A stretch of 64,000 nt of DNA. Origin: Limonium bicolor. Its lineage: Eukaryota > Streptophyta > Magnoliopsida > Caryophyllales > Plumbaginaceae. This document shows, one piece after another, positions 25,377 to 57,217 of this stretch. The stretch is taken from the NCBI GenBank assembly GCA_023374045.1, contig CM041778.1, forward strand, positions 402,316,438 through 402,380,437, given 5' to 3'. Both the position numbers and the translations under genes were made by a program. Below the pieces are notes generated by a model that saw only the letters and a program-made list of their open reading frames with translations, made no database searches and was not told the DNA's origin. Numbering within the stretch: position 1 is the first letter of the stretch; every line of letters starts with the position of its first letter.

Positions 25377-25378
25377 AG

Positions 25379-25396: not shown

Positions 25397-25416
25397 TGGC
25401 TGACAAATCTCTCAAA

Positions 25417-27090: not shown

Positions 27091-27192
27091 TGGCTGAGAA
27101 ATAAAGGCAAAGTAAACTACCAAAAATAGCCACAAAACCCAATGATCTTCAAAGAAGGAAACTCCAAAAGAAAAATTTGAAAACAAATTCCG

Positions 27193-27402: not shown

Positions 27403-27420
27403 TTATCTTGTAGGGAGAGA

Positions 27421-33256: not shown

Positions 33257-33271
33257 AAAAAGGGGGGAATT
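33257..33271 (+). promoter_or_regulatory. polypurine tract of the Copia element
   Basis: aaaaaggggggaatt abuts the 3' LTR start at 33272. Confidence 0.85.
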
Positions 33272-34002
33272 TGTTGAAGACTTAAGTTTTGTTTTGCAGA
33301 TGATTGCCTCCTCAGTCAAAGTAGCGCTGCAGAGAAACTTGGCGCGATACGGAAAGATTTTTCACTGTCACAGCTCGAGTACCTTTGCAGAAGCATCTGT
33401 CCGCGAGTTCCTATATACCGAGAAGCGCGACGTTACTGAAGTAGTTGCGGAAATCTCGCATAGTTGGAGCAATAGCAAAACGTGAGATCGTGACGCACAA
33501 GGAGGTCCATTACTCCGATACTTGCGGAACCAACCCAAGGAGTCGTTTTACTTGAAGACTTCACCGAAGATTTAGGAGATAGTTGACAAGTATATAAGTA
33601 TGCGAATGTAATTAGTTAAGTTGTGCATTCGAGATTATTTAGAGAGATACACCGTCCTTGAGAGAAAAAATATTCTTGAGAGATCTTAGTGAGATAGTGT
33701 CAATTAGCTTAGGTATTTATTACCTAGAGAGCACACATAGAACACTCTCCTTTACTCCTTGTGACGCATTGATCAAAGCCGAGAGTAGTAGAGCGAGTGT
33801 TGGATGAGACAGAATACTTCTGTCGAATCCCAAGATAGGAAGCTAGGTTGTAATTCACATTGAGTTTCAATACAAGCAGAATCCTATCTTGTTAAGTTTA
33901 AACAAAAGCTTCCGCGTTATTTTTACACACCTTTATTCTTCAAGTAGAGTTGGTCTGAGACTAACACCTCAGACCTACTCGGTCAGCACCCCGATCCCAT
34001 CA
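33272..34002 (+). repeat. 3' LTR of the Copia element
   Basis: 731 bp, near-identical to the 5' LTR; the largest difference is a small ttttg duplication near its start. Ends ccatca, followed by the aggtg duplication. Confidence 0.93.
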
Positions 34003-34007
34003 AGGTG

Positions 34008-35209
34008 GCTCTTATGCTCCTTCATCGACCTTGAACAAAGGTCATCAAGTCCATAAATATGCTAGAACGTTCAACAACGGACGACATTACTATAAACTCG
34101 TAGTGGTCATATATTCTCGTCCGGAATGTCGTTCTCTATATTCTGCTCCCTGATAGATATCTAGTGGTACCCTGATCTCAGACCAATCTTGGAGAACACT
34201 AATGCCCTCTTCAATGATCAAACAAATCATCAATGCGCGATGTGGGTACTTGTTCTTTACTAAGACTGCATTCCGCTCTCTGTAGTCAATGCACAATCGG
34301 AGGCTAACGTCATTCTTCTTCACGAAGAGAACTGGTGCACCCCAAGGTGATACACTAGGGCGTATGAAGCCCTTCTCAAACAAGTCTTCCAGCTGCTTTT
34401 CAGCTCGCTCATCTGAACTGGTGCCATGCGGTACGGTTCCTTAGCTATCGGGCCCGTACCTAGTAGTAGATCGATAGTGAACTCTACCTCTCGTGCTGGT
34501 GGCATGCTGGGAAGCTCCCTAGGAAAGAGGTCAGGAAATTCCGACACCACTGGCACGTCTGGACTGAACTTGGGGTCTTGCTCTAAGTCCTGAACATAGC
34601 ACAAATACACCTTATTTTGCTTCCTGGATCTCTCTGAACATGGACATAGTAGATATCGCCTTGATCAAAGGCTGTCTGAGGCTCTGGTGGTACGACACAG
34701 CCACTCCCGAAGAACTCCTGAGCAATAGTCGGTGCTCAACACAAAGTATGCGCCCCTTGTGCCGCCCCAATCAGTCCATCCCCACTATAACATCGAATCT
34801 CAATCCTCTGAACTTGATCAGTTTGATAGGAAAGTCTTCATCCCTTATTGAGGTGGTGGCTCATTGATAACAACGAGTGCATATGATCTTCTACTTAGAC
34901 AAGAGCGTCACCATGAAATATGGAAACTCTACAACGTCTAGCCCCAACTTCCCCGCAAGTGAAGAAGAAACAAAGGTGTGTGAGTCTCCGAAGTCAAACA
35001 AAACCGATGCTGACACTTCATTGACCGGAAAGGTACCTGAGGTAATTATCTCACATGCTACGTCCCATTTATTCTCGGTATTCATTAAGGCCTTTAACCG
35101 TTATTAATTCGGTTTTATACCTATGAGGATAGTGCCACTCTCGCCAGCCTCTGCCTCTGTGAGTATGCTAAGGTTACCTTCCATCCCGATCCCACAACCT
35201 ATTCATAAA
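34008..35209 (-). pseudogene. Ty3/gypsy protease-reverse transcriptase fragment
   Basis: On the minus strand the order is protease, linker, then the first half of reverse transcriptase. The protease (35085-34891) reads VSASVLFDFGDSHTFVSS, where the expected Asp-Ser-Gly is Asp-Phe-Gly. A linker with FDVIVGMD and EHRLLL follows (about 34800). Reverse transcriptase has [50 protein letters not shown] and [13 protein letters not shown]. Downstream text is decayed and the segment holding the catalytic FIDD is missing between here and 24654. It is closely related to the pol of the 18 kb chromovirus. It contains no AlkB sequence, but its gag region is deleted. Confidence 0.88.
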
Positions 35210-35473
35210 TGTAACGGCCCAGTTTCAAGTCACTGGTAGATATTGTCTACTTTGCCACAACTCACGGTTTTGTTTCTGAGGGTCAACTAGTTACACCACT
35301 CAAAACGCATCTACCATAAAGGAGTATCCACACCCTTATAAGGAGTGCTTCGTTTGCCCCTCCAACCGATGTGGGAGCCGTTTCGTGGCACACCACTCAC
35401 CCCCTAAAGGGAGCCCAGCGCCCCCCCGCGGCCCGCTGACACATCGATCCGACCATCGGCTCTGATACCACTT
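35210..35473 (-). mobile_element. TRIM fragment (LTR B plus short internal domain)
   Basis: On the minus strand: a primer-site-bearing internal piece (35473-35393, starting aagtggtatcagagccg) followed by a 183 bp short LTR (35392-35210, tgtgccacg to gggccgttaca). Both are near-copies of the parts at 38466-38543 and 38544-56781. It lies between a gypsy pol fragment and a 2.15 kb LTR, so gag of that gypsy element has been replaced or deleted. Confidence 0.7.
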
Positions 35474-37624
35474 TGTAACACCCCTGATTTTCTAACCTTT
35501 TATTAGGTCAATTGTATTACAATTCAAGTTTTATATTGATAAGCAGTGGAAACAAAACCTAATCCGGAGTATTACTGCCACACTCGCAAAGGAACGAGTG
35601 TGAAGCCTAAACAATTAACTAAATAACCAAGTCATTATTTTTGACAAGAAAATTCAATGTCCATAATAATAATTTCTTAAAAATGCACAAGTCTTAAAGC
35701 CTAAAATAAAATTCAATAACAAATAACTAGCCTATGTGGAGTCGCCTTCCCAAACCCAAAGGACTTCATCAGTACCTGTGGCAGAAATCCAAACAAACAT
35801 AGAAAGAGCCACAATAAAGTCAGAAAAACTGAGTAAGCTACCACTTCACTACGTAAAAATCATTTTCTCTTTGAAAACAATTTTACAATATTGCAATGCA
35901 CCACCATACAAATCATCACATAAGCATAAAGCAGACTTTGTATAATATTTCACATTTGCTTCCTCAATAACTCAAGAATGGATATCCAGATTAATTAAAT
36001 TATCTTCCTTGTCCCAACGCACAGCCAGGACAAAACAACATCTCTCACATTTGGGTACAACACGCAGCTGTAACCTGGACCCCAACACGCAGCTGGGAAT
36101 CCAACCTCGCCACTAAATCCTTAAGTGTGCACATTCCCCAATAGTTCAAAAGACTACGGAGTACATCTAGGGCTAACTGTGTCCTAGTGCGGCCCACAGT
36201 ATCTCAAACTTATGCGTCCTAGTGCGGCCCGCATATATCATCTTATCCAGGTGTCCTAATATGGCCCACATGTACCATGGTATAATCTTCCATATAATCC
36301 CTTTATTCATTGATATTATTCACTTTATAATCTCTTTAATTTCCACATATACCACCAAAATTCAATCATGCCTCAACAATCGTGACTAAAAATAATTGCA
36401 ATCTCACATAATCATATCATTAACATTTTCTCATCAATCTTTCCTCTAAAAATAATCTCCATTTATTCACCAAATAGTAAGCCACACACTTAAATATTTC
36501 CAATAATCATTATCATAACCAATTCGCTCCCAAAAAAATAGTCACTCACAGATAACAATCATAATCACCACAAAAGATTTATTTTACGCAGTTAATACAA
36601 AGCTAGTGAACGCAGTAACTTACTTGGAATCTAGAAGCAATCCGCACAACCAAATACAACCTCAATTACTGTTTCTCGCTCCCAATTTGGAGCCTTTACT
36701 CTACTGGTTGAGAAAAGACGCAACAAAGGGTAGCAGAAGTGAGGGTTTTTTTCCTGTTGGAGGAATAGAGCCGAGAGAGAGAGAGAGAGAGAGCAGAGTG
36801 AGAGAGATGCAGAATTTTGTAAAGATATTCGGGAGAGATAGCAAAGTGAGGGTGGTAGTGCCCTGATAAAAGAACTGGGTGACTTCAATTTATAGGAAGC
36901 CAGAGGAAAACCAACGAAGCTAGGGAATACCAATCAAATTAATTAATAGATTCAAATTAAACTAGTTAAATAAATTACAAAAAAAAAACCAATGGTTAGG
37001 AAATATGGAAGGTTAAAAGTATTTATTAAATAAATTTGGAAATGTGAAAAGTTATAACTTATTAACTAAATGAAACAAGGAAATACCAAAAGGTAAAATC
37101 AATTTAAAAATGATTTACTTAATGTAGTAAAGTCCTAGTAGTATTTAATTCATAACATAATTATTATAACTTAATCTTTAATAAGTAAATATATTAAACT
37201 AACTAGATAAATATGATGATCATTACTACTACATTAAAATCACAACTGACTTCTTTCTAAAACATGTTATTTTATTGAAACAATGTATTAAATACTATAT
37301 AATATGCTCGTATATAATATAATATATTCATAAACTATATAACAGATATATTTTGAATCAACGGTAATATTTGAATCATATCATTATTATTATAACTTCA
37401 TTTTTAATAAATAAATATACCAAGTTAACTAGAGAAATACAAGGATAATTAATATGAAGATAAAAATCACAACTACCATAGTTTTAAAACAGATTATTTT
37501 ATTAAATGCATTATCTTTATTAAATAGTGTATAATATGCTCGCAAACAATATAATATGCTTGCAAACAATATAAATACTCGTGGACTAGAAAATAAATAT
37601 ATTTTAAAATTTAGGGGTATTTCA
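35474..37624 (-). mobile_element. 2.15 kb Tekay-like LTR, minus strand
   Basis: On the minus strand it starts tgaaatacccctaaa and ends aggggtgttaca, the same termini as the 4.7 kb LTRs. A polypurine tract precedes it (37637-37625) and a primer site follows it (35471-35460). Its promoter is visible on the minus strand as tataaat at 36894-36888, followed by a CT-rich leader with a (ct)n run (36774-36796 as ga on the plus strand). Confidence 0.75.
36888..36894 (-). promoter_or_regulatory. TATA box of the minus-strand LTR
   Basis: The plus strand reads atttata; on the minus strand tataaat sits about 90 bases upstream of the (ct)n leader. Confidence 0.5.
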
Positions 37625-38271: not shown

Positions 38272-38465
38272 TGTAATACCCCCATCCCACATCGGGATAT
38301 GAGTAGTATTGTGAATGGTTTATAAGGATACATATGGGTTGACTACAACAACAAGGCCTTCCACTTTTAAGACCAAGTGAGGACAAAGGCTCAAAGTGGC
38401 TAGTTTTCAAGCCCGAATTGCTTGGGAGCTAGGTTGTTGGACAGTTGCCCATATGGGGTGTTACA
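38272..38465 (+). repeat. TRIM LTR A, 5' copy
   Basis: 194 bp, tgtaataccc to ggggtgttaca, followed by aatggtatcagagcc (primer site). Repeated at 56905-57096. Confidence 0.85.
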
Positions 38466-38648
38466 AATGGTATCAGAGCCGATGGTCGGATCGATGTGCC
38501 AGTGGGCCCGCGGGGGCGCTGGGCTCCCTTTAGGGGTGAGTGGTGTGCCACGAAACAGCTCCCACATCGGTTGGAGGGGCGCGAACAAGCACTCCTTATA
38601 AGGGTGTGGATACTCCTTCATGGTAGACGCGTTTTGAGTGGTGTAACT

Positions 38649-41600
38649 TGAAAACCCCTAATCTTTTAAAATATAATTAAATGATCTATTAATGATCAAA
38701 GATGATTATTAAGCATCTATATATTGGGGGGAACAATCTAAGAGATCTCAACAAGGCAAAACGCCTTAAGATCGGTAAAGCCAAAAATGTGCTTTAAGAC
38801 ACCATAAAGATTGTATGACCTCAAATAGGATCCAAAGTGGATTCCTAAGTATTATAATGAAGCAAGGAACACAATAAAACCATTCTCAAGGAGAACTAAG
38901 CTCAGGAACACCCTGTGACACAAAAATGGCGCGCTAAAACTCCTTAAAGCACGTTTTTGTGAGATTGCCTTTTAAATTGATTTCTAATGGGATTAAAAAT
39001 TATAATTATCCTTAAATATGATATTTTGCCATATTATATCATATTAGGAATTTAATTCCAGAAATTTACGAATTTTTACAAATTTAATATTAAAATATTA
39101 ATAAAACCCTAAAGTGGGGCCCACATGAGTCAATATTGACCAAGCATGGTCAATGGTCAATTAATTGACCCCTTAGGACCATGGAGATCGCGATGAAATA
39201 AGAGAGGAGACAGAATACAATGATTTTTGGGGACAAATTACTACCTAATCTCCAATTTAGAATAGTAACCTTTACTTTTTACATTATTTCCTACCTTTCC
39301 CACCTTCTCCTTCCTTCCTTGTCCGATTCTCTTCTGCCCAGCCAAGCTCTCCCCTTCCTTTTAAGCTCTCAAGGCTTGTTCTTGAGCATGGAAGGCAAAC
39401 CTAGCTCCTAAGCTCTTAAGGTAAGTGTTTTAATGTCATTTTTAGCCCTTTTTCTTCATCTTTTCACTACCAACACCTAGATTTCGTGGCTCATCAATTC
39501 CTATGGCTTATTCTCAGTGTTCTAAGGTTAGAACAAGAGCTAAACTCGGTTGAGACCAGTAGAGAGACCAAGGTTGTTCAAATCTACATTTTAAGGTAAA
39601 AACATACCTTAAGCTTCTCAATCTTCCATGCGGTTTTCTTCCTTCAATTTTTATGAGTTTATACACTCATAATCTTCATATTTACATATTCATTCAGTTG
39701 GTTAGCCATTTGGAGCAAGGGTGACCAAGATCCAAGAGAAATACTCTCTTTTAAGGCATTTTCCAAGGTAAAACCTAATAACAAGAGAGTTTGTTTAGAT
39801 CTAGCTATTTCCTATGTCAATATGGTAGATCTAACACCTTGTGGTGTGTTTGGTTCAGGCCGAAAACACCTAGAACTTCCCTTGATTTTTTAAGGTAATT
39901 TTTGCCTTAAATCTTACATTAATTATTCCTTATGGTTAAGCTCAAGCTTGGAGTGAACCATATCTTGTTTTTGTGTATTAATATGTCTAAATCAAGTGGT
40001 GAATTTTCCTACAAGTGACCGAGCCCATACAAGGAATAATCAAGGTATAAACACCTTAAACTTATGATTTTTGTAATTTCAAGTATATATATATACATGG
40101 CCGAGATTGAAACTTCAAATATAGGTCATATTGACCTAAAAATGGAAAAAAAAATGGCTAAGATAAATTAAGCTAATCATTTAAGAGATTTAATTAACAT
40201 AATGGTCAAATTATGACATTGTGTGGAAAAATAATTAAACCATGGTGAGGAGCCGAATATATATGCTATATTTTGATACATTTTTGTGTATTTATTTTTG
40301 CAAGTTCAAGGTTGTTGTAATAAGGCCATGTCATTAGGCTCATTTTAATTTAAGTTTATAAGCTTATTTAGTTTTATTTACGCTTATAATTAAAATTGGG
40401 GCCAATTCGTAATTACTAGGAATTTAGAAAGCCGTGGGCTTAATTTAGGGCAATTTAGGGTTTTTAAATGAATTTAATAAAATTATAACATTTTATAAAG
40501 TTTTGGGTCAAAATTGTAAAAATAGAAAAGTATAGGGTATTATTAGTGATTACCGAAAAATTGGTTCCCATTTGGTATTAGAAGTCAAAGTTGACTATAT
40601 AGGAGACTTTGACCAAGTTTGGAGAATTTAAGAAATTAAAATACTACCTTATAATAAGATACTTATTAGATTGTAAAAGATTTATAAGACTTGGGGTAGT
40701 AATGTAATTACCGAGACTTAAGGGTGCTAAATGGAGCTTAGTAAAGTCCTTAAGTTGTTAGGAATTTTTAGAAGTTTATTTGGTTAAATTTGGAGTTCAT
40801 ATGAATTATATAAGTATAATATATGGTATTTTATAACATTGTTACTAATAGGTAATAAATGCATAGAAACCGAGATTTAGAGGAAAATAAGGTTAAGAAT
40901 AATGTTTATAACCTTTTGGTATAGTTTGGTAATTTTTGGAGTTATAGATAAGGTTTATTAAGAAATGTGTATAATATATAGTTTTAATGGAATTAGAAAA
41001 CTATGTATTATAAATTGGGATTGGATTGTGATTTTATAGAAATTTAGTGACTATAATAAAAGCTGAAAATATAAGGGGCTAATTGGTATTTTATAAACAA
41101 AATATAACTATAAGTTATAATTGTTTTAAATGACTTAAATGTCATAAGATATGTTATATATCTAGAATGTAACTTATATTAATTAAGTGGTGGATTTTGT
41201 AAATATTTAAGAACATAGGTGCTGTTCAAAAATATTAACATTTTAAAATGGAATTTATAATATGGTTTTAATGTTATAAGAAATATAACATTTATAATAT
41301 AAGAGGTATTCATTAAAAAGAATGAATATAGATTATAAGACTTACCATATAATAAATAGTTCCATAATACACATATATAAATAAATATATGTAATGGTGC
41401 AGAAAATGTGATATGGTTCAATAATTATATATTATCATAATTAAAATGATAATAGATAAGGAGAAAAGAATTATAAACATTAGATATGGAATTCTAATGT
41501 TAAGAGTATTCATGGGATAATAAGGATTTCAAACATTCAAAGTATTGTTTACAAATGAATTATACCACATTGAATTTTTTAAAAAAAGAGACAAACCTTA

Positions 41601-43357
41601 GAAAAATAAATACTAAGGTGAGGTGTATAGTGCATGACAAGGAATCATACATGCAATAAAGAAACAAACTATACGATCTATAAATATACATTAAGTTACA
41701 TGTGATAACAAGTTCAACAATAACTATACTAATATACCAAACAAGACTACGCATGTAATATAACACTTTTCCCAATCTCGAGTTCAACCTAAAACCCGAC
41801 AAACATTGATAGTTAATAACGGGGGGTTAACCGGGAGTGTTAGTGACGGCACGGAGTACCGTAGGATTGTGTTGTTATACGGTATGCTAATCAGTAGCAT
41901 TATATATTGTTTAGATTGTTAGAGACTACACAAGGAGCATAGGATCTCGCTGATTCATACTCCACCGTAATACATCAGGGTGAACGGTATGTTGTTATGT
42001 GTCTCTGATTGTCTCTGAGGACTTCCTCAGTTCAGACTTCTGTGTGATCTGTGATAAGATTGTTTGTCTGAACGTGATAATTAATATGCACGAATTGTAT
42101 ATTTATAGCTGCTTATTATTACTGTTGTTGAGTTAACAGTACCGGTTCGTATATATGGACCTATATATATAAACGAACTAGCGGCTATAGTGCTATCTTA
42201 TATGAAATATAAGGATCGTCAGAAAAACGTTGTAGCACTAGGATAATAAGATATACATATTATCCGAGACTTTTATACGGAGCATTGGCCTTTCTATACG
42301 CCGCTCTTGTATCTAACACTGGATCCCGAGTTTACAGACTCCGGATTGGACTAATGACCTTAGTCTGCTGTGTTAGGAAATTTGGTAATGCGATGCGATG
42401 GAATAAATAATTAACTAAGGAAGGAAAGTAAAGCCAGGAGGATGTGGCTCTTGGTGCGCGCTGTGATCACAAAAACGATACCAGGATGTCCGCGTACGGG
42501 TCCGCAAGTATCAAGAAAATTTCCCGTGAGCTAGAATGGCTCGTTGGTCGGAGACTCTACCGTTGGAGTGGCTACTGCCGTGGGTGACCCGCCATAATAT
42601 ATGGGTAACTAGAGACATGTCGTTTTAACGAGGCATTGTCACTAGGTATAACTGAACAAATAATACAGTTAAGAATTATACAGTGGCGAACGATATTGGT
42701 TTCTACACCATGGACGAGAACTAGTACTTGTTTATTGTCCTCGTTGTTTCGCTTGGTTGTTCATTGGTTATACATGTGGTTATATTATATATGTGATGGT
42801 TGTGTTTATTGTATGGATGTTACTGTTAATTGTTTTACAGTTTTAAATATTAAAACGGTATTGCATGTAATGAACCTCATGCTCTCGACCAAATAATTGA
42901 GGGGTCTTTGGGGGCATGACGGGGCATGTGATGACATACTCAGCAGGGGATGATTCCATACCACAAACCACTTTCATGCAGGTGACTAACTGGTGGGTCG
43001 CAGCGAGGCGTGACTACTGTGATATTACTGTTGGTTTAGACTTGGTACGGTGTGATACTCAGGTTGTTTTGGACTCGGGTTGTTTAACCGAGGTGTGTTT
43101 TGTTTAGATGCTCACGGTCTGTAATAATTGTTGATGTTAGATTTGTTTTAAGTTGTTAAGTTCTACTATCTATCTCTTGTGGTCACTGCGGGAATACGTT
43201 TCGCAAGTTGATTATCAGGTAATTCGTTATCACCCGTATGGGCGAGTGATAACAGTGACACCATTAGGGCGATAGTTTATTACTTACACCGCTGTGAGAT
43301 ATTATTGTGCGCGACATTTATAGGATTACTAGGAACCGATTTAGTAGGGGTGTTACA
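38649..43357 (+). repeat. 5' LTR of the chromovirus (4.7 kb)
   Basis: tgaaaacccc to ggggtgttaca. Very long for a plant LTR and without a convincing open frame. From about 39410 to 40050 a degenerate unit with aaggtaa words recurs about every 150 bp. The rest is AT-rich until about 41800, then higher-complexity sequence shared with the LTRs at 3635 and 21177. Confidence 0.93.
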
Positions 43358-43533
43358 AAAGTGGTATCAGAGCGGAGTACCGCTCTGATTACAAGAGATA
43401 GTAGTTTAAGTACCGTGAGCCTAGGTTATTTACACACCAGTACCAAGAGATAGTGTAAATGATTTGAGTTAAGATATGGTAAGGAAAGTACGGTATTTAT
43501 ACTAAGAGCTGACTTTGGTTTTGAATTCTTCAG
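43358..43533 (+). promoter_or_regulatory. chromovirus leader: primer binding site, hairpin, and 5' untranslated region
   Basis: The primer site tggtatcagagc starts at 43362, five bases after the LTR. A perfect 10 bp stem (43366-43375 with 43380-43389, loop agta) overlaps its 3' half. The sequence just before the gag ATG (ttgaattcttcag, to 43533) is a good splice acceptor, so the leader may contain another intron. Confidence 0.75.
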
Positions 43534-44211
43534 ATGTCTTCCGGGAGGCGATCAGCAGGTAGAGGAGGTGGTGGAAGAGGCGGCGGGCCTGGAGCAGGTC
43601 CTCCGGAGGCCCCAGCCGTGGGCGTGGCTGAGACGGTAGCTGCCGTCTTCGCTCAGCTAGCCCAGATGGGAGGTATCCATATAGGAGCACCACCTGCACC
43701 ACCGGTAGTCCCACCCGTACCCGCACCTAGAGAGCCAAATTGGCTGAAGAGCGTAGCTGACACGCGAGTACCTACCTATGATGGAGTTGCTGACCCCACT
43801 GTCCTGGAGAGATTCATTGTTGAGCACGAGAAGGCCTTCGATGCCATACACGTGCCTGCTGAGCACCGAGTCGATATAGCAGCCTTTCACCTGAAGGACG
43901 CTGCCAGCACGTGGTGGAGGTCCGTGAAGGCACATTATCTTGCTATAGAGGGTTTTGGATGGACTAGTTTTGTGGAATTGTTGAGAGAGAAGTACTATCC
44001 TGCTCATTTGAAGCAGAGGAAAAGGGAGGAGTTTGAGGCCCTGAGGCAGGGTAGTATGACAGTAGATCAGTACTACTCCTTGTTTATTGGGCTCTTGGAC
44101 TTCGTCCCAGGAGTTGTTTATTCTGATGCTGTGAAGGTGGAGAAATTTAGAGGCAGGTTGAGATATGCTATCAAGGCCGCCATGGGTGCTACCTTGTACC
44201 CTACGGTTCAG
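43534..44211 (+). CDS. gag: chromovirus Gag, exon 1 (capsid)
   Basis: Starts at ATG 43534 (MSSGRRSAGRGG), a glycine/arginine-rich N-terminus, then a proline/alanine stretch. The capsid domain follows at residues ~65-226: VPTYDGVADPTVLERFI, HLKDAASTWWRSVKAHY, LREKYYPAHLKQRKREEF and MTVDQYYSLFIGLLDFVP, all typical of plant chromovirus Gag. It is uninterrupted for 226 codons and ends exactly at a codon boundary followed by gtaaaa. A 79 bp GT-AG intron (44212-44290) separates it from exon 2. Reading through the intron would give a stop at 44278-44280. Confidence 0.88.
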
Positions 44212-44290: not shown

Positions 44291-44421
44291 GAGTGTTACG
44301 ACGCTGCTTCTCGGACTGAGATGATGGTGAACAGCCGAGAGGACGGTCAGGGGCAGAAGCGTAAGGCCCCAGAGAAAGAGGCAGAGACTGAGGCTGGAGG
44401 CGGAGGCAGTAAGGGCTGGAA
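44291..44421 (+). CDS. gag: chromovirus Gag, exon 2
   Basis: In phase 0 with exon 1 it reads ECYDAASRTEMMVNSRED, then a charged, glycine-rich linker (KAPEKEAETEAGGGGSKG). It ends in phase 2 before gtaagaacc; the 92 bp intron 44422-44513 ends gatcacag. Continuity of the Gag family pattern across the junction supports the splice. Confidence 0.72.
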
Positions 44422-44513: not shown

Positions 44514-44638
44514 AAAGAAAAAGTTCTCCTGGAGGGAGAAGAAGAAGGAGCAGGCCAGCCAAAAAGGGAAGGACAAGGTCCCGTTGCTGACCGGGCCTAC
44601 CTACGATGTGCAGCCTCTTAGATCTGTACCCCCTAAGG
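44514..44638 (+). CDS. gag: chromovirus Gag, exon 3
   Basis: A lysine-rich segment (KKKKFSWREKKKEQ, QKGKDKVP) with no stop when joined to exon 2. It ends in phase 1 at 44638 before gtaagcgatc, a strong donor; the 85 bp intron 44639-44723 ends gataatag. Confidence 0.7.
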
Positions 44639-44723: not shown

Positions 44724-45068
44724 GTTCTGCACCCCAGCGCCACTTTCACTGCAAGCGCTGTGGCAAAGACCACCCGGGTGTTGACTGCACCGGGCAAGCG
44801 GTGGACTGCCACCATTATGGAAAGAAGGGCCACAGGTCGTTCGAGTGCTTCTCGAACCCGGAGAGCCGAGCGTACCGCCCACCGAAGGGGACTCAGGGCG
44901 CACCTACTGGAGGAGGTGGAGCTCGAGGTGGCCAGAGGGGGCCGGCGCCCCAAGCCCAGAGAGGGCAGCAGCCGCAGCAGAACCAGGGCCAGAGGAACCC
45001 GCCGGGCAACCGTATGCTGAATGCAGCGGGAGCTTCAGGCGCTGGCACTAGTACCCAGCACGGTGAAG
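44724..45068 (+). CDS. gag: chromovirus Gag, exon 4 (nucleocapsid zinc knuckles)
   Basis: Reads QRHFHCKRCGKDHPGVDC followed by a CCHC knuckle, CHHYGKKGHRSFEC. The tail is rich in Gly, Arg and Gln (GGQRGPAPQAQRGQQPQQNQ). The zinc-binding segments bind the element's RNA. The exon ends in phase 1 at 45068; the next triplets in the genomic frame give a stop (45070s), so translation past here needs splicing. Two acceptors downstream keep the frame: 45198/45199 (AlkB exon) and 46058/46059 (protease exon). Confidence 0.78.
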
Positions 45069-45198: not shown

Positions 45199-45937
45199 GA
45201 GACTTCGATATCTGTTATCCCACACTTACAAGACAGAGATCACCTAGACCCGTGGAAGAAAGACGGGAGTACCCTAGTGAGTTGTGTCATGTAGTCAGAC
45301 CGGGCATGATACTTCTCCGAGAATACCTAACCCTAGATGAGCAAATCACCATAGTGAATGAGTGTAGAGCTTTGGGTAAGGGCATAGGAGGTTTTTATAC
45401 CCCTGTATTTACTAGTGGTTCTAGAATGAAACTGCACATGATGTGCTTAGGGAAAGACTGGGATCCACAAGCTAGGGTTTATCGAGAGGTGAGGATGGTA
45501 TGTGACGTATCTATACCTAGTATACCTGATAGTTTCCTTACCTTAGTGAGAAACACAATGGATATTGCTCAAGACTGTGAGGCTTATCCACTACCTGACA
45601 TGACACGTGACGTTTGCATCATCAACTACTATGAACAGGGAGGAAGCTTGGAATGCACCAGGACCGTGATGAGACGACCAAGTCCATCACCAGAGGGGTA
45701 CCGGTTGTGTCATTCTCCATCGGCGATGATGCTGAGTTTATCTATGGAGACCAGAAGAGGATGGATCTAGCAAGCAAGATCATCCTCAAGTCTGGGGATG
45801 TGTTAGTATTTGGTGGAGAGTCGAGACTTGTATATCATGGTATTAAGAGCATTAAGCTCAATACCGCACCACCAGCTCTAGTGAATGATACCCACATCTG
45901 ACCCGGCCGTTTAAATTTAACCTTCAGACAGTACTGA
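45199..45937 (+). CDS. AlkB-type 2-oxoglutarate/Fe(II) dioxygenase exon inside the retrotransposon (two lesions)
   Basis: Joined in phase to Gag exon 4 it reads FDICYPTL, then the AlkB fold from about 45290: VVRPGMILLREYL, GFYTPVFTSGSRM, HMMCLGKDWDPQ and CIINYYEQGGSL. The iron ligands are His (45656-45658) and Asp (45662-45664) of HQD and the distal His (45836-45838) in RLVYHGI. The 2-oxoglutarate/substrate arginines are in RLNLTFR (45908-45928). Order and spacing match plant ALKBH1-like nucleic-acid demethylases, which oxidatively remove N-methyl groups from DNA or RNA. Two lesions are visible: a one-base loss near 45650 shifts the frame just before HQD, and a TGA at 45899-45901 precedes the arginine motif where relatives have Arg (a CGA to TGA transition). 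There is no intron inside the domain, so capture from a spliced mRNA is likely. The domain's own stop is 45935-45937. Confidence 0.9.
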
Positions 45938-46058: not shown

Positions 46059-46605
46059 GCCATAGAAATGGAAAGGAGGGTACCATCTGCATCCTAGACA
46101 TGGCGCAAGCCAAGGAGTCTGGTAATGTCATCACAGGTATGACAATTACAAGAAACAGTAAATTAGTGATTTATTGGGACTCGATGCTAATACGAGAGAT
46201 GATCTCAGGTACCTTCCTATTGATGGTGTTAGTGCTTCCGTACTGTTCGACTCAGGGGCTTCGCATTCTTTTGTTTCCTCGACGTTTGCTAAGAAGCTGG
46301 GGGCCACCCCCGAACAGATTTCAGACTTTGCAGTCACCCTTCCTTCGAAGGAGAAAGTAGGTTGCACCAGACAGTATACAGGGTTAGAGATCAGCATTAT
46401 GACTGAGACCTTCCTCATTGATCTGATTGAGTTCAAGAACTTGGGTTTTGACATCATAGTGGGTATGGATTGGCTACAGAAGCATAGGGGCCGCCTTCAT
46501 TGTGCAGAGCATCGACTACTACTGAAGGGGCCGAGCGGCAAGACAGTGTCATACCGCAGTGTGAGGAGAGAGCCGACTGTCAAGATCGTGTCAGCATTAT
46601 CCCTG
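46059..46605 (+). CDS. pro: chromovirus protease exons
   Basis: Exon 46059-46136 reads GKEGTICILDMAQAKESG and ends VITG in phase 1. A 72 bp GT-AG intron (46137-46208) follows. The exon from 46209 contains the aspartic protease: ASVLFDSGASHSFVSS with catalytic Asp-Ser-Gly, then FDIIVGMDWLQKHRGR and EHRLLLKG. A one-base loss near 46213 (a TTT shortened to TT compared with the related minus-strand gypsy copy) puts the two exons out of frame. The frame runs to the solo-LTR target site at 46601-46605 and is continuous in phase with reverse transcriptase at 48655. This exon can also be joined directly to Gag exon 4, skipping AlkB, without loss of frame. Confidence 0.85.
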
Positions 46606-48654
46606 TGTGAGCCTCGATTTTAAACCCTTTCCTATGTGGATTAAGTTGATTAGGATCTAATCGGGTTTTAGGTCCACTTATAACCTAAGATTAATAACTA
46701 TGTCATATAACAATAATTATTAAAACCTAAGCTAGCTCACTGGAATCTATTATGAGTCGCCACCTAATTTTGACCTAGATTAAATTAGGAAAGGAGAGTT
46801 CGGGTTCGGGGGCTTGATATTCGACTTAATTAGGGTTCAATTACTTTCATTACCCTTAGAAGTCGTTTTTCCTCTACTTAGTTTAATTACGGCTTATTAC
46901 GAGTCGTTTTAACTTAAGTGCGTGAGCTTCTGTTTTTTTGTGTTTTTTAGCATTTTTTGACAGAAAATTAAAATAAAAATAAAGATTCCTAAACTAGGGT
47001 TTCAGAGGCAGAATTAGGTCAAATTTTGTTTCCGTCCGTGGCTACGGACCTAATGTCCGAACCCACGGACCCTAGTTAACCTATGTGAACATAAAAGCCG
47101 AATTAAACAGAAAACACAATTTTGCAAGGTCCGGGGCCACGGACAGGATGTCCGTGGGCCCGGACATTATTTTAGAAAACCTAAATTTGAATTTTTTAAA
47201 AAATCCCGCCGCCGTCCGTGGTCGTCCGGGCTTACGGACAGGGAGTCCGGGACCCCGGACATGACGTCCGTGGGTGCGGACCGCCCTCAGACGGCGGCGT
47301 TGAGGCTGTTCCCGAAGGTGTTTTTGGCTCAAATTTTATGGGTGTGTAGCCTGAAAGATGTACAAGACGTTAGTGATTGAAAGATTTCAATTTGAAATCG
47401 AATTTAATGCGAAACTTAACGAACAAGTTAGAAGGCAGAAACACAAACAAACCTTAATTCAGAAGCAAGGAAAATCAATTCGGTTAGCAATTTCAACCAG
47501 AATCGTATTTTGACCAGAAGGGTTAGAGAATTTGGTTTTTACCCTGTTTTGATTTCGAAAACTTGTTGTTCCTTCACGTCGGGAATCTCTGAAAGCTTCG
47601 TTGGTGGCCGATCCGGTTCGACTTTGACCCGAGCTTCTGACCTCTTCTTCCTTGTGTTGTTAAGCACGTTTTGGTTCTGTATTTGTGGTGTTTTGATGCT
47701 TGGAAGTTCAATGAGAGAAGAAAGAATGTGTTTTTGGTGATTTTGGGATGATTTCGGTAGAGTTTCGGTGTTGGGAGTGTTGAAAACGTGGGAGGCAAGT
47801 AGACGGCTGTGTTTTCTGACTATGGGGATCATCTCCTCTGCCCTAGGTCGTTTTTTGAAGGTCCTTTATAGAAAGAGCAAGGCCATGTTGATAGAACAAT
47901 ATTTTTATCTAAAACCCTGATTTTGTGCTCTAAGGGAATCTGATTTTTTAAAATATGTTGCAGGCCGATAAAAATTATGAAATTTTAACTGAAGGTAAAG
48001 GATGAATTTTAAGAATTTTGAGAGTTGGAATCGGGTTATTTTGATAAATAACCGATTAGATAAAAATCTCACAATCTGGAATCTCCCATAATTCATAACT
48101 AATTATTGGAAAGTCGAAATAATGAAATTCCAACGGCATTAGTCTCTAAAAATCATCCTCTATCTTTTGTTAAAATTTCATGACATTTTGTTTTGATTTC
48201 GGTATTTTCCAGAGGAGAGAGAAATTTGCAAAAATGATTGAATTTCTCTTTTAAATTTTGGGATAAGGTTCCCAATAAAATAATTTCAGGTTTATGACTG
48301 TATGTAGTCATGGTAACCATGTGACAATTTTATTTTAATTTTGGAAACCTTTTAATTTCTATTTTGAGGCTATTTCATGTGTTAAATATTAAAGAAATTA
48401 GCTTATAATATGAATTAAAAGCTGAATTTCCAGAATAAATATTATCAGAGAATCATGAAATACCTTTCATAATGACCATGATATTTGGAAGTGTTTGGAG
48501 ATAATGAAAAAGTCATATGAAAAATAGAAAATCCCGAGAATGTCCTTGGAAAATCCTGCATTGGTGCATTTTGACCACTTTGCCCTTTGTAACATGTATG
48601 CCTTAGAGACCACTCCGGGGGGGGGGGGGTTGAAATTTTGGGTATAACACCCTG
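46601..48654 (-). mobile_element. solo LTR of the gag-only (Tat/Ogre-type) family, inserted in pol
   Basis: 46606-48649, 2044 bp, minus strand, with termini tgttatacccaaa and gaggctcaca as in the LTRs at 12045 and 19351. It is flanked by the 5 bp duplication ccctg (46601-46605 and 48650-48654). It contains the same cggac/gtccg palindrome cluster (47030-47290), which supports the assignment. A G13 run lies at 48617-48629. No internal domain is present, so it is a solo LTR formed by LTR-LTR recombination. It separates the chromovirus protease from reverse transcriptase. Confidence 0.92.
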
Positions 48655-50125
48655 ATGAAGGATGTTAGGCAGGGCCGACAAGCCTTCCTCTGTTATGTAC
48701 AGGACACGAGACAGAGCGACGTGACGGACGTAGACATTCCAGTCGTGGTAGATTTTCCCGACCTATTTCCTGATGAGCTGCCAGGCATGCCACCTGTGCG
48801 CGAGGTTGAGTTCGCCGTCGACTTGTTGCCAGGTACGGGCCCCATTGCTAAGGCACCCTACCGTATGACACCGGCTGAGATGAGGGAGCTGAAGCTACAG
48901 CTGGAGGACCTCCTTGACAAGGGATTCATTCGACCTAGTGTTTCTCCTTGGGGTGCTCCAGTGCTGTTCGTCAAGAAGAAGGACGGCAGTATGCGACTCT
49001 GCATCGACTACCGCGAGCTTAATGCGGTTACAGTCAAGATCAAGTACCCATTACCACGGATAGATGATTTGTTTGATCAGCTGAGAGGAGCCAGTGTGTT
49101 CTCGAAGATAGATCTCAGATCTGGCTACCATCAGATTAGGATTGCAGAGGGCGATATTGAGAAGACAGCTTTCCGGACACGGTATGGACACTACGAGTTC
49201 ACCGTTATGCCATTCGGACTGATGAATGCGCTAGCCATATTCATGGACTTGATGAACCGACTTTTTTGAGAGTATCTTGATAGTTCAGTTGTAGTCTTCA
49301 TCGACGATATTCTGATCTATTCAAAGACCAAGGAAGACCATGAGTTGCATTTGAGACAGGTGGTTGAATATTATGAGAGAGAACCAGCTGTATGCCAAAC
49401 TCTCTAAGTGTGAGTTCTGGTTAGACAGCGTGTCATTTCTAGGACACATTATATCAGCTAGCGGCATATCTGTAGACCCTGCTAAGATTGAGGCAGTGAA
49501 GAGTTGGCCAAGGCCGAAGACAGTCACAGACGTCCGTAGCTTTCTGGGTTTGGCAGGGTATTATCGAAGATTCGTGAAGGACTTCTCCAAGGAAGCCAAA
49601 CCGATGACTAATCTAATGAAGAAGGAATCCCAGTTCTTATGGTCCTGCAGAGTGTGAGCAGTCCTTTCAGACGCTGAAGGATCTCCTTACATCAGCGCCC
49701 GTTCTTACTATCCCGAGGGCACTGATGGGTTCGAGGTATACTGTGATGCCTCTGGAACCGGTCTAGGCTGTGTGCTTTCTGCCCACGGGAAGGTAGATTG
49801 CTTACGCATCCCGACAGCTGAAAAGCATGAGGTGAATTACCCCAAGACACACGACCTTGAGTTAGGCGCAGTAGTCTTCGCTTTGAAGATCTGGCGACAT
49901 TATTTGTATGGTGTGACAGTCACTATCTACTCTGATCACAAGAGTCTACAGCATCTCTTCTCGCAGAAGGAGCTGAACATGCGACAGAGAAGATGGGTCG
50001 AGTTCTTGAAGGACTACGATATAGACCTGAGGTACAAAGAGGGCAAGGCGAATGTGGTAGCTGATGCCCTGAGCCGCAGAGCTCATTCATTGTTCACTTT
50101 ATTAGCAAAACAGCAGTATGATTGA
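48655..50125 (+). pseudogene. rt: chromovirus reverse transcriptase and RNase H
   Basis: Reads [64 protein letters not shown] and [15 protein letters not shown] (first catalytic Asp). A TGA at 49267-49269 interrupts, then the catalytic FIDD is at 49297-49308. Frameshifts occur near 49360, 49640 and 49720. The thumb ([23 protein letters not shown]) and RNase H ([49 protein letters not shown]) follow. All catalytic residues I looked for are present in one frame or another. Confidence 0.92.
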
Positions 50126-51378
50126 TGAGATACGAGCTGCACAGGAGAGTGACCACTATATGCAGAGTATCAGGCAAGAAAATGATAGATGGTTGTTTTG
50201 AGAGGCTCTAAAATATGACTTCGAACTGTGCGATGATGGCATGATTCGACTGAAGGGCCGTTTGTGTATTCCGGAGTCGTCTCCTGACCTGAAGGAGAAG
50301 ATACTCCAGGAGGCTCATTGCTCGTCCTTATCCGTCCACCCTGGTTCGTCAAAGATGTATAAGGATTTGAAGGTTCATTTCTGGTGGAGCGGGATGAAGA
50401 AGGATGTAGCTGAGTATGTGGCTAGATGCTTGACCTGTCAGAAGGTTAAGTTTGAGCATAGGAGACCCGGAGGTTTAGTGCAGTCTATGCCTATTCCTTG
50501 TTGGAAGTTCGAGGACATTTCGATGGATTTCGTTGTCGGTCTCCCACCGACTAAGGGAGGACTGAACACGATTTGGGTCATTGTGGACCGTCTGACGAAG
50601 GTGGCAAAATTGTTGCTATGAAGGATACCTGGAACGTTACGAAGTTAGCGGATTTGTTCCAGAAGGAGGTGATCCGGCACCATGGTTTGCCAAAGACTAT
50701 TGTTTCTGATAGGGACCCTCGATTTTTGTCCAGATTCTGGGGACAGGATCAGGAAGCCTTGGGTACAAAGTTGAAGCTTAGTACGGCATTCCATCCACAG
50801 ACCGACGGTCAGAGTGAGAGGACCATCCAGACACTGGAGGACATGCTGAGAGCATGTGCCTTAGATTTTAGGGGAGCTGGTTAGAGCGTCTACACTTGAT
50901 AGAGTTCGCCTACAACAACAGCTACCACTCCTCGATACAGATGCCACCATTTCAGGCACTTTATGGTAGACCATGTAGGACTCCTTTATGCTGGGATGAG
51001 GCCAGCGAGACTACGCTTCTAGGACCTGAGTACCTAGAGCAGATTAAGGAGGATGTCCTACAGATTAGGAAGAACATGAGGGCAGCTCAGGACCGGCAGG
51101 AAGCAAATGCAGACACCAAGAGGAGGGACATTGAGTTCACTACCGATGATATGGTATTCCTTAGAGTGTCACCCATGAAGGGGATATTCCGGTTTGGGCA
51201 GAAGGGCAAGTTGAGCCCGAAGTATGTTGGACCTTATGCGATTAGGGAGCGAGTGGGCCCGTTAGCCTACATACTGGATTTACCAGCAGAGCTCGGGAGG
51301 GTGCACGACGTCTTTCACGTTTCACAGTTGAAGAGGTATGTGCCCCATCCATCGCACGTTTACAGCCAGAGACTTTAG
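50126..51378 (+). pseudogene. int: chromovirus integrase
   Basis: An N-terminal zinc-binding HHCC is readable in HCSSLSVHPGSSKM and ARCLTCQKVK. The DDE core has Asp in SMDFVVGLPP, Asp in [14 protein letters not shown] and Glu in [17 protein letters not shown]. The C-terminal part has LIEFAYNNSYHSSIQMPPF, ALYGRPCRTPLCW and GKLSPKYVGPYAIRERVG (GPY/F motif), then VFHVSQLKRYVP. Frame breaks occur near 50610 and 50882. Confidence 0.92.
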
Positions 51379-51564
51379 ATTTGGACCCTGCTCTACGTTA
51401 TGAGGAGTGAAGTACCACTCCGCATTCTCGACACGAAGACGAGGCAGACTAGGAACAAGACCGTCAGTATGGTCAAGGTTCTCTGGTCGAACCATGAGGT
51501 GGAGGAGGCTACATGGGAGTTAGAGGACTCCATGAGAGCGAAGTACCCAGCACTCTTCGAGTAG
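51379..51564 (+). CDS. chromodomain tail of the integrase
   Basis: After one or two frame slips beyond 51366, the frame ending at a TAG (51562-51564) reads VPLRILDTKTRQTRNKTVS, VKVLWSNHEVEEATWELED and AKYPALFE. This is the divergent plant chromodomain found at the integrase C-terminus of chromoviruses, thought to steer insertion towards particular chromatin. It fixes the element as a chromovirus. Confidence 0.85.
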   Translation: MWTLLYVMRSEVPLRILDTKTRQTRNKTVSMVKVLWSNHEVEEATWELEDSMRAKYPALFE

Positions 51565-52003: not shown

Positions 52004-55000
52004 TGAAATACCCCTAATCTTTAAAATATAATTAAATGATCTATTAATGATCTAAGATGATTATTAAGCATCTAATATTATTGGGGAACAATCTAAGAGA
52101 TCTCAACAAGGCAAAACACGCCTTAAGATCGGTAAAGCCAAAATGTGCTTTAAGACACCATAAAGATTGTATGACCTCAAATAGGATCCAAAGTGGATTC
52201 CTAAGTATTATAATGAAGCAAGGAAACACAATAAAACCATTCTCAATGAGAACTAAACTCAGGAACACCCTGTGACACAAAAATGTGCGCTAAAACTCCT
52301 TAAAGCACGTTTTTGTGAGATTGCCTTTTAAATTGATTTTAATGGGCTTAAAAATTATAATTATCCTTAAATATGATATTTTGCCATATTATATCATATT
52401 AGGAATTTAATTCCAGAAATTTATGAATTTTTACAAATTTAATATTAAAATATTAATAAACCCTAAAGTGGGGCCCGCATGAGTCAATATTGACCAAGCA
52501 TGGTCAATGGTCAATTAATTGACCCCTTTGGACCATGGAGATCGGCTGAATAAGAGAGGAGACAGCATACAATGATTTTGGGGACAAATTACTACCTAAT
52601 CTCCAATTTAGAATAGTAACCTTTATTTTTACATTATTTCCTACCTTTCCCACCTTCTCCTTCCTTCCTTGTCCGATTCTCTCTGCCCAGCCAAGCTCTC
52701 CCCTTCCTTTGAAGCTCTCAAGGCTTGTTCTTGAGCATGGAAGGCAAACCTAGCTCCTAAGCTCTTAAGGTAAGTGTTTTAATGTCATTTTTAGCCCTTT
52801 TCTTCATCTTTTCACTACCAACACCTAGATTTCGTGGCTCATCAATTCCTATGGCTTATTCTCAGTGTTCTAAGGTTAGAACAAGAGCTAAACTCGGTTG
52901 AGACCAGTAGAGAGACCAAGGTTGTTCAAATCTACATTTTAAGGTAAAAACATACCTTAAGCTTCTCAATCTTCCATGCGGTTTTCTTCCTTCAATTTTA
53001 TGAGTTTATACACTCATAATCTTCATATTTAAATATTCATTCAGTTGGTTAGCCATTTGTAGCAAGGGTGACCAAGATCCAAGAGAAATACTCTCTTTTA
53101 AGGCATTTTTCCAAGGTAAAACCTAATAACAAGAGAGTTTGTTTAGATCTAGCTATTTCCTATGTCAATATGGTAGATCTAACACCTTGTGGTGTGTTTG
53201 GTTCAGGCCGAAAAACCTAGAACTTCCCTTGCATTTTTAAGGTAATTTTTGCCTTAAATCTTACATTAATTATTCCTTATGGTTAAGCTCAAGCTTGGAG
53301 TGTAACCATATCTTGTTTTGTGTATTAAACATGTCTAAATCAAGTGGTGAATTTTCCTACAAGTGACCGAGCCCATACAAGGAATAATCAAGGTATAAAC
53401 ACCTTAAACTTATGATTTTTGTAATTTCCAAGTATATATATATATACATGGCCGAGAGTGAAACTTCAAATATAGGTCATATTGACCTAAAAATGGAAAA
53501 AAATGGCTAAGATAAATTAAGCTAGTCATTTAAGAGATTTAATTAACATAATGGTCAAATTATGACATTATGTGGAAAAATAATTAAACCATGGGAGGCC
53601 GAATATATATGCTATATTTTGATACATTTATTGTGTAATTTATTTTGCAAGTTCAAGGTTGTAATAAGGCCATGTCATTAGGCCATTTTAATTTAAGTTT
53701 ATAAGCTTATTTAGTTTTATTTACGCTTATAATTAAAATTGGGGCCAATTCGTAATTACTAGGAATTTAGAAAGCCGTGGGCTTAATTTAGGGCAATTTA
53801 GGGTTTTAAATGAATTAATAAAAATTATAACATTTTATAAAGTTTTGGGTCAAAATTGTAAAAATAGAAAAGTATAGGGTATTATTAGTGATTACCGAAA
53901 AATTGGTTCCCATTTGGTATTAGAAGTCAAAGTTGACTATATAGGAGACTTTGACCAAGTTTGGAGAATTTAAGAAATTAAAATACTACCTTATAATAAG
54001 ATACTTATTAGATTTAAAAGATTTATAAGACTTGGGTAGTAATGTAATTACCGAGACTTAAGGGTGCTAAATGGAGCTTAGTAAAGTCCTTAAGTTGTTA
54101 GGAATTTTTAGAAGTTTATTTGGTTAAATTTGGAGTTCATATGAATTATATAAGTATAATATATGGTATTTTATAACATTGTTACTAATAGGTAATAAAT
54201 GCATAGAAACCGAGATTTAGAGGAAAAATAAGGTTAAGAATAATGTTTATAACCTTTTGGTATAGTTTGGTAATTTTTGGAGTTATAGATAAGGTTTATT
54301 AAGAAATGTGTATAATATATAGTTTTAATGGAATTAGAAAACTATGTATTATAAATTGGGATTGGATTGTGATTTTATAGAAATTTAGTGACTATAATAA
54401 AAGCCGAAAATATAAGGGGGCTAATTGGTATTTTATAAACAAAATAAACTATAAGTTATAATTGTTTTAAATGACTTAAATGTCATAAGATATGTTATAT
54501 ATCTAGAATGTAACATTATATTAATTAAGTGGTGGATTTTGTAAATATTTAAGAACATAGGTGCTGTTCGAAAATATTAACATTTTTAAATGGAATTATA
54601 ATATGGTTTTAATGTTATAAGAAATATAACATTTATAATATAAGAGGTATTCATTAAAAAGAATGAATATAGATTATAAGACTTACCATATAATAAATAG
54701 TTCCATAATACACATATATAAATAAATATATGTAATGGTGCAGAAAATGTGATATGGTTCAATAATTATATATTATCATAATTAAAATGATAATAGATAA
54801 GGAGAAAAGAATTATAAACATTAGATATGGAATTCTAATGTTTAGAGTATTCATGGGATAATAAGGATTTCAAACATTCAAAGTATTGTTTACAAATGAA
54901 TTATACCACATTGAATTTTAAAAAAAAAGAGAGACAAACCTTAGAAAAATAAATACTAAGGTGAGGTGTATAGTGCTTGACAAGGAATCATACATGCAAT

Positions 55001-56697
55001 AAAGAAACAAACTATACGATCTATAAATATACATTAAGTTACATGTGATAACAAGTTCAACAATAACTATACTAATATACCAAAACAAGACTACGCATGT
55101 AATATAACACTTTTCCCAATCTCGAGTTCAACCTAAAGCCCGACAAACATTGATAGTTAATAACGGGGGGTTAACCGGGAAGTGTTAGTGACGGCACGGA
55201 GTACCGTAGGATTGTGTTGTTATACGGTATGCTAATCAGTAGCATTATATATTGTTTAGATTGTTAGAGACTACACAAGGAGCATAGGATCTCGCTGATT
55301 CATACTCCACCGTAATACATCAGGGTGAACGGTATGTTGTTATGTGTCTCTGATTGTCTCTGAGGACTTCCTCAGTTCAGACTTCTGTGTGATCTGTGAT
55401 AAGATTGTTTGTCTGAACGTGATAATTAATATGCACGAATTGTATATTTATACCTGCTTATTATTACTGTTGTTGAGTTAACAGTACCGGTTCGTATATA
55501 TGGACCTATATATATAAAACGAACTAGCGGCTATAGTGCTATCTTATATGAAATATAAGGATCGTCAGAAAAACGTTGTAGCACTAGGATAATAAGATAT
55601 ACATATTATCCGAGACTTTTATACGGAGCATTGGCCTTTCTATACGCCGCTCTTGTATCTAACACTGGATCCCGAGTTTACAGACTCCGGATTGGACTAA
55701 TGACCTTAGTCTGCTGTGTTAGGAAAATTTGGTAATGCGATGTGATGGAATAAATAATTAACTAAGGAAGGAAAGTAAAGCCAGGAGGATGTGGCTCTTG
55801 GTGCGCGTTGTGATCACAAAAACGATACCAGGATGTCCGCGTACGGGTCCGCAAGTATCAAGAAAATTTCGTGAGCTAGAATGGCTCGTTGGTCGGAGAC
55901 TCTACCGTTGGAGTGGCTACTGCCGTGGGTGACCCGCCATATATATGGGTAACTAGAGACATGTCGTTTTAACGAGGCATTGTCACTAGGTATAACTGAA
56001 CAAATAATACAGTTAAGAATTATACAGTGGCGAACGATATTGGTTTCTACACCATGGACGAGAACTAGTACTTGTTTATTGTCCTCGTTGTTTCGCTTGG
56101 TTGTTCATTGGTTATACATGTGGTTATATTATATATGGTGATGGTTGTGTTATTGTATGGATGTTACTGTTAATTGTTTTACAGTTTTAAATACTAAAAC
56201 GGTATTGCATGTAATGAACCTCATGCTCTCGACCAAATAATTAAGGGGTTTGGGGGCATGACGGGGCATGTGATGACATACTCAGCAGGGGCTGATTCCA
56301 TACCACAAACCACTTTCATGCAGGTGACTAACTGGTGGGTCGCAGCGAGGCGTGACTACTGTGATATTACTGTTGGTTTAGACTTGGTACGGTGTGATAC
56401 TCAGGTTGTTTTGGACTCGGTTGTTTAACCGAGGTGTGTTTGGTTTAGATGCTCACGATCTGTAATAATTGTTGATGTTAGATTTGTTTTAAGTTGTTTA
56501 AGTTCTACTATCTATCTCTTGTGGTCACTGCGGGAATACGTTTCGCAAGTTGATTATCAGGTAATTCGTTATCACCCGTATGGGCGAGTGATAACAGTGA
56601 CACCATTAGGGCGATAGTTTATTACTTACCGCTGCGAGATATTATTGTGCGCGACATTTATAGGATTACTAGGAACCGATTTAGTAGGGGTGTTACA
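52004..56697 (+). repeat. 3' LTR of the chromovirus (4.7 kb)
   Basis: 4694 bp, tgaaataccc to ggggtgttaca, co-linear with 38649-43357. Most differences I noticed are one-base indels in homopolymers, with few substitutions. Confidence 0.93.
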
Positions 56698-56781
56698 TAA
56701 CTAGTTGACCCTCAAAAAAAAAACCGTGAGTTGCGGCAAAGCGGACAATATCTACCAGTGACTTGAAACTGGGCCGTTACA

Positions 56782-56904: not shown

Positions 56905-57096
56905 TGTAATACCCCATCCCACATCGGGATATGAGTAGTATTGTGAATGGTTTATAAGGATACATATGGGTTGACTACAACAACAAGGCCTTCCACTTTT
57001 AAGACCAAGTGAGGACAAAGGCTCAAAGTGCTAGTTTTCAAGCCCGAATTGCTTGGGAGCTAGGTTGTTGGACAGTTGCCCATATGGGGTGTTACA
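56905..57096 (+). repeat. TRIM LTR A, 3' copy
   Basis: 192 bp, preceded by gagtgggggagta (polypurine tract) and almost identical to 38272-38465. Confidence 0.85.
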
Positions 57097-57217
57097 ATAT
57101 ACTTTAGTAAGTACTTGATAACACGGTGGGAGTCAAAAAAGATAATCAACCTCTTATTTTGTTCATTCATTGTTTACATCATGATCTTCATTACACATGC
57201 TTGAAGATAATACAACA
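57097..57217 (-). other. 3' flank of the second AlkB copy
   Basis: On the minus strand it holds aatgaatgaacaaaataagag (57171-57151), matching the 3' flank of the first AlkB copy apart from a four-base insertion. It ends at TRIM LTR A. Confidence 0.5.

Follow-up and report, generated by a model that had tools for sequence, protein, structure and literature searches.

The window, a stretch of 64,000 nucleotides of the Limonium bicolor genome, contains a Ty3 retrotransposon with two 4.7-kb LTRs, the gene order gag-PR-RT-RH-IN and a 5-bp target-site duplication (TAACT, at 38644..38648 on the left and 56698..56702 on the right). Self-BLAST (97.7% over 4753 bp) delimits a 5' LTR at 38649..43357, beginning with TG and ending with CA, and a 3' LTR at 52004..56697, both on the forward strand, as are all of the coding features of this element. 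The two LTRs differ by 0.0125 (K2P, 4671 aligned sites), which at substitution rates of 1.3e-8 and 7e-9 per site per year corresponds to an insertion age of about 0.5-0.9 million years. Just inside the 5' LTR is a primer-binding-site-like sequence, TGGTATCAGAGC (43362..43373, forward strand), which by complementarity we take to be of the initiator tRNA-Met type. Gag starts with exon 1 at 43534..44211, which covers the capsid region (PF03732, E 5.7e-16; PF19259, E 8.2e-9), continues through two predicted exons (exon 2, 44291..44421; exon 3, 44514..44638) and reaches exon 4 at 44724..45068, where zinc-knuckle-like residues were assigned by eye, Pfam giving no match. An AlkB exon with a phase-1 acceptor and a TGA end (45199..45937) separates gag from the protease leader exon (46059..46136, likewise with a phase-1 acceptor) and the aspartic protease (46209..46605; PF08284, E 3.8e-23). 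The remainder of pol comprises a broken reverse transcriptase with frame breaks (48650..49657; PF00078, E 7.3e-20 on 48634-49266), an RNase H with Pfam matches on one stretch only (49658..50122; PF17917, E 2.8e-24), a broken integrase with zinc-binding part, core and C-terminal SH3 (50202..51375; PF17921, E 4e-20; PF24626, E 1.7e-24), and a chromodomain-like end (51379..51561), for which PF00385 scores 22.8 bits (E 9e-5), just under the Pfam cut-off of 25.1. Protease and reverse transcriptase are separated by a later nested insertion of 2.04 kb, solo-LTR-like (46606..48649), that is absent from a compared copy (L059). The initial annotation had described a complete chromovirus bounded by a target duplication; the LTRs and the TAACT repeats bear out its boundaries, whereas the 2.04-kb insertion and a pol split into several frames tell against its completeness.

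Other repeats were noted in the window. The nested insertion at 46606-48649 shows a 5-bp overlap at its site, and part of it shares 83% similarity with the LTR at 12064-13847, which pairs with a second LTR at 19377-21171 (94% alike) of another element. A 195-bp TRIM-like repeat pair lies at 38272-38466 and 56905-57097, with a TGGTATCAGAGC stretch after its first copy, and the AlkB element is inserted inside this repeat unit; a related interior is found at 35209-35484, an element-free stretch that self-BLAST of the window places on the opposite strand. In addition, a Ty1/copia element with LTRs 98.2% alike occupies 24655-34008 and carries, after its pol, an extra ORF (31328-32791) that matches PF20167, 'Putative plant transposon protein', at E 4.5e-15.

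AlkB enzymes take N-methyl groups off RNA or DNA. The assignment of such a 2-oxoglutarate/Fe(II) domain to 45199-45937 in the initial annotation was confirmed, since PF13532 matches the two halves of the domain (E 4.5e-10 and 4.5e-18) with scores of 40.5 and 66.6 bits against a curated cut-off of 31.2, and FDIC, RPGM, GFY, MMCLGK, HQD, the distal His and RLNLTFR follow one another in order. The best PDB match is the rice enzyme OsALKBH1 (5xeg; E 6.2e-28 and 1.9e-25). The first description thus stands in that a Ty3 element whose pol has a chromodomain-like end carries an ALKBH1-type AlkB between its gag and its protease. The exon is not, as had been supposed, a single long open one: its first part (45199-45653) and its second part (45659-45901) are read in two different frames, and RLNLTFR comes only after a stop. 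The AlkB domain in the window is thus real but broken in this copy.

The AlkB-bearing element belongs to a large family with two subfamilies, A and B, in the window's own genome. A DNA search of this genome (2,924,550,425 bases) yielded 2882 first-look candidates, and each of the best 40, which were scored, matched at 96-100% identity, the window included. A protein search with P0004, a plant protein of the host type, yielded 46823 candidates, of which 130 were scored; all 130 were matches in the window's genome, and 78 had no stop in the match by hand tally. One B-type pattern of AlkB acceptor and exon had 148 matches in the whole genome, and its backward control two. For comparison, 48 AlkB-bearing copies were fetched, the window's copy among them (28 A and 20 B, subfamily B being the twenty fetched P0004 matches, L029-L048); the AlkB of B is 57-63% identical to that of the window over its first part and 80-86% over its second. 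Gag exon 4 and AlkB are present in 28/28 A copies and gag exon 1 and PR in 27/28 each, a later tblastn locating gag exon 1 in all 28, and in B the AlkB exon, gag exon 4 and PR are present in 20/20 copies and gag exon 1 in 19/20. The gag-AlkB-protease order is therefore kept with few losses across the 48 copies. Downstream, the PR-RT-RH-IN-chromodomain stretch was found in seven of the eight copies checked, and a clear LTR start in three of four A stretches. The further gag-AlkB-pol copies that the initial annotation had proposed to look for thus turned up as many gag-AlkB-protease copies in two subfamilies. Two ENA sequences also belong here: P0001 (AlkB) and P0006 (gag, 63% identical) both have 26,561 bases as their longest contig, and because they report this equal size we take them as one contig, probably that of a related element. 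No relatives of P0001 were found among the viral contigs scanned.

The AlkB domain is open from FDIC to NLTF, with HQD, in 27 of the 48 fetched copies, 25 of which have a domain of 245 residues; because so many are open, we attribute the frame break in the window to decay of that copy and reject it as a family-wide trait. Retention of HQD and NLTF in the open copies carries no weight because both were criteria for choosing them; all 27 retain the distal His and the two arginines of RxNLTFR. Pairwise dN/dS (NG86), computed for the 25 open copies left after two were dropped for differing length, was 0.133 for the 36 pairs among 9 A copies and 0.135 for the 120 pairs among 16 B copies, while between A and B dS was saturated (median undefined), which makes the A-B ratio only indicative. 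The B copies were chosen as best matches to a host protein, a choice that favours conserved proteins and may therefore lower dN in B; the A copies were chosen by DNA similarity to the window, which should not lower dN. As copies were picked by best match, the fraction with an open domain does not represent the family as a whole. Across the 28 A copies, AlkB has 49 variable columns at third, 22 at first and 15 at second codon positions, and pairs of copies differ on average by 0.022 in AlkB vs 0.053 and 0.040 in two introns. For the gag core, dN/dS was 0.144 across the 45 pairs of 10 A copies; for 8 B copies an undefined dS gave no ratio. Judged from these alignments, the AlkB domain of the family is under selection, and the comparison of dN/dS across copies suggested by the initial annotation gave a non-neutral value of about 0.13 within subfamilies.

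GT-AG segments break up the gag region of subfamily A, and at the ten sites counted 25 to 28 of the 28 copies retain the splice dinucleotides. Both ends of intron 1 and the GT of the phase-1 donor behind gag exon 4 (at 45069) are present in every A copy, the acceptor AG of intron 2 in 25/28, and the acceptor AGs of the protease leader exon and of the AlkB exon, the latter in frame with gag, in 28/28. That these inter-exon segments are random insertions was rejected, both on their near-constant lengths (with few outliers) and kept splice dinucleotides and because the segments are also absent to the base in some copies. Intron 1 is missing in B: of the 19 copies measured, 18 have 0 nt between exons 1 and 2, and the other has 1 nt. 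In the same subfamily, intron 2 is precisely absent from one of 19 B copies measured, and intron 5 is absent from 19 of 20. AlkB forms a stop-ended exon within the gag-pol intron. Its acceptor and the protease acceptor both read as phase 1 in the A and B copies examined, and with equal acceptor phase and a stop of AlkB's own, one donor could feed two products.

Six copies (L067-L072) have gag exon 4 joined to the protease leader exon with no AlkB between them (backward control, 0). One of these, L072, is 98.8 and 99.3% identical to the AlkB-bearing L048 on the two sides of 956 missing nucleotides; the break can be placed in three equivalent ways, of which one reads GT...AG. This alignment identifies L072 as a derived copy with an intron-exact loss of AlkB; an ancestral AlkB-less state is unlikely for L072, its relative L048 having AlkB and being 99% identical on both sides. 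The other five (L067-L071) are without AlkB and introns 1-3 and have gag in frame with protease, and may be either spliced offspring or an older state. A joined gag-AlkB copy was sought with B-type patterns in the window's genome and not found: one search gave 0 matches, and the other gave the 148 matches counted above, none with fewer than two mismatches, those listed being the unspliced acceptor or near variants. A joined gag-protease copy of the A type was not found in a pattern search (1 match, control 115). As no joined gag-AlkB copy was found, the case for the Gag-AlkB arm is built on the acceptor phase, AlkB's own stop and the conservation of splice sites, from which joining by alternative splicing is predicted.

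A possible internal start bears on the same question. Among the 27 open copies, 25 have no in-frame ATG before the AlkB domain; an ATG occurs at domain residue 10 in 15 and at residue 18 in two, which would allow translation to begin within the domain in these 17, and in the other 10 the first Met inside the domain comes only at residue 36.

By sequence and by modelled fold, the element AlkB is nearest to plant ALKBH1, not to ALKBH5 or ALKBH2. An AF2 model of P0001 (33 sequences, pLDDT 84.5) has OsALKBH1 as its best PDB match, with a TM score (target) of 0.90-0.92; it also fits the E. coli AlkB fold, and human ALKBH5 and ABH2 rank far lower than OsALKBH1 in sequence and fold matches alike. Plant ALKBH1 (OsALKBH1, PDB 5xeg/5xoi) is 50-51% identical to P0001 in the fold match and shares the same motifs. 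According to the available portion of one report, enzymes of the rice ALKBH1 class are 6mA demethylases acting on single-stranded or unpaired DNA, and rice ALKBH1 has a limited effect on overall 6mA (PMC10469495).

A tree of retroelement AlkB and host ALKBH1-like genes, proposed in the initial annotation, was built with 39 rows, and its two kinds of sequence form separate groups: 12 TE-type AlkBs (nine from the window's genome plus P0001, P0007 and P0009) are split from 27 host ALKBH1 rows with 100/100 support in a bootstrap that had not settled. The host rows are the ALKBH1 gene found in the window's genome and 26 others, 25 of them from named plants, which were hand-picked among the matches listed (120 of 2532 in one search). 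P0001 joins subfamily A with 97/91, and it was because P0001 falls among them that the nine TE rows of the window's genome did not alone form one side of a branch in a first tree. The host ALKBH1 gene was found at two places, 99.3% alike, although further paralogues in this genome may have been missed; its domain reads as three exons, whereas the element domain is a single exon and groups apart. The two places (L049, C3:704080, and L050, C3:133828320) are on one chromosome-sized contig, and their likeness, which extends over 3.2 kb, may reflect duplication or an assembly effect. Since the element AlkBs group apart from this gene and from the 26 other host rows, the view that the element recently took up the demethylase of this host found no support. 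The family is likely old, and the one-exon state of its AlkB would be explained most simply by capture from a spliced messenger.

Taken together, we put at about 0.62 the probability that the window holds one decayed member of a probably old Ty3 family of high copy number whose ALKBH1-type exon is predicted to be fused to Gag and to demethylate RNA or DNA of the element. In the mechanism we propose, splicing of gag exon 4 to the AlkB exon would yield a Gag-AlkB protein ending at AlkB's own stop, splicing of the same exon past AlkB to the protease exon would yield Gag-Pol, and full-length unspliced RNA would be the template for most new copies. Carried into the particle by Gag, the enzyme would rid genomic RNA or single-stranded cDNA of N6-methyladenine (or of m1A/m3C-type lesions), and this demethylation would aid the element against restraint based on methyl marks or against damage. 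The substrate is the least certain of these steps. We advance only tentatively the fuller account that a single ancient capture gave rise to a Gag-fused ALKBH1-type demethylase that is carried in particles, with the fusion made by retrovirus-like alternative splicing and adenine methylation stripped before integration, as a counter-defence independent of the ALKBH5-type enzyme of orchid elements.

The same family and the same splicing could serve an enzyme that repairs alkylation damage (m1A/m3C) in RNA or cDNA of the element, or acts on host RNA or DNA, with no counter-defence. We consider this rather doubtful: the modelled fold of P0001 does match E. coli AlkB as well, and the AlkB domains of plant RNA viruses have been proposed to act in RNA repair, as stated in the accessible text of PMC9289625, but the closest relative of the element AlkB is rice ALKBH1, from a class that PMC10469495, in the part available, describes as 6mA demethylases, a description that is compatible with repair too. 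It also seems unlikely, on the evidence of the splice sites, that AlkB is made separately from an internal start or another transcript. The ATG at domain residue 10 or 18 in 17 of the 27 open copies, the lack of a gag-AlkB junction among copies searched with B-type patterns, and the separate AlkB ORF of the orchid elements, as the available part of PMC9289625 presents it, would all suit a protein of this kind; against it, the acceptor AG is present and in frame with gag in all 28 A copies, 25 of the 27 open copies have no Met before the domain, and 10 have none inside it ahead of residue 36.

Two further readings treat the domain as a gene fragment. The broken copy in the window, and the 21 of 48 fetched copies that fail the open-domain test, might suggest a functionless passenger, a gene fragment multiplied along with the element; a dN/dS of about 0.13, the excess of third-position changes, and a domain kept in two diverged subfamilies and in P0001 make this very improbable. 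The many copies, the two subfamilies, the relative from another source and the separation of element AlkBs from the host gene found in the window's genome leave practically no room for the fall-back of the initial annotation, in which the window copy alone recently took up a fragment of a host gene.

The presence of AlkB in a retrotransposon is not unprecedented, because orchid Ogre-type elements carry an ALKBH5-type domain. As far as the available text of PMC9289625 goes, Gypsy_Pa_2799 and its kin are Phalaenopsis elements of Ogre/Tat type with a 2-ODD (ALKBH5-like) ORF, the product of which demethylates m6A RNA in vitro; they were seen in two Phalaenopsis species only and in none of the other genomes screened there, and dual RNase H and a PBS to tRNA-Arg mark their lineage (PMC9289625). 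From the same partial source, the Phalaenopsis elements and the present family have in common that they are many-copy plant Ty3/Gypsy elements with a PF13532 domain whose cofactor residues are kept (PMC9289625). The differences are that the orchid domain is ALKBH5-type and has an ORF of its own (ORF2) next to one gag-pol ORF, in a Tat lineage that the text at hand places as sister to Ogre (PMC9289625), whereas in the present family, which does not have this hallmark of an ALKBH5-type domain in a separate ORF2, the domain is ALKBH1-type and, placed after gag and ahead of protease, forms one exon within a gag-pol that has introns and a chromodomain-like pol end. The lineage of the present family probably differs from that of the orchid Ogre-type elements. 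In openly licensed PMC papers we found no ALKBH1-type or chromovirus AlkB retrotransposon, and in this literature the orchid family, with its different type of AlkB, is the only other AlkB-bearing retrotransposon family found. Plant RNA viruses (flexi- and closteroviruses) likewise have an AlkB domain in a mobile or viral genome; among the fold matches listed, viral AlkBs are only 12-21% identical, those of plant viruses lying within replicases or polyproteins, and viral AlkBs are not the closest relatives of the element AlkB.

If our main reading is correct, then for a second time, and independently, a plant retrotransposon has kept a nucleic-acid demethylase, here of a class described for 6mA in single-stranded DNA. 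That two lineages of elements carry AlkBs of two different classes would suggest that methylation of their RNA or cDNA is a genuine barrier, and with a class capable of acting on single-stranded DNA, plant 6mA could be tested within the life cycle of a retroelement. Plant LTR elements are generally without introns, with exceptions that include Ogre and EVADE, according to the part of PMC12786077 available. Ogre and EVADE resemble the present family in being plant LTR elements with introns, and theirs are described in that part as functional and alternatively spliced (PMC12786077). The present family, whose splicing we infer from sequence, differs from both in having several gag introns and an enzyme-coding exon within the gag-pol intron; it would constitute a natural case of a multi-intron LTR element, in which intron-less, AlkB-less offspring record its splicing.
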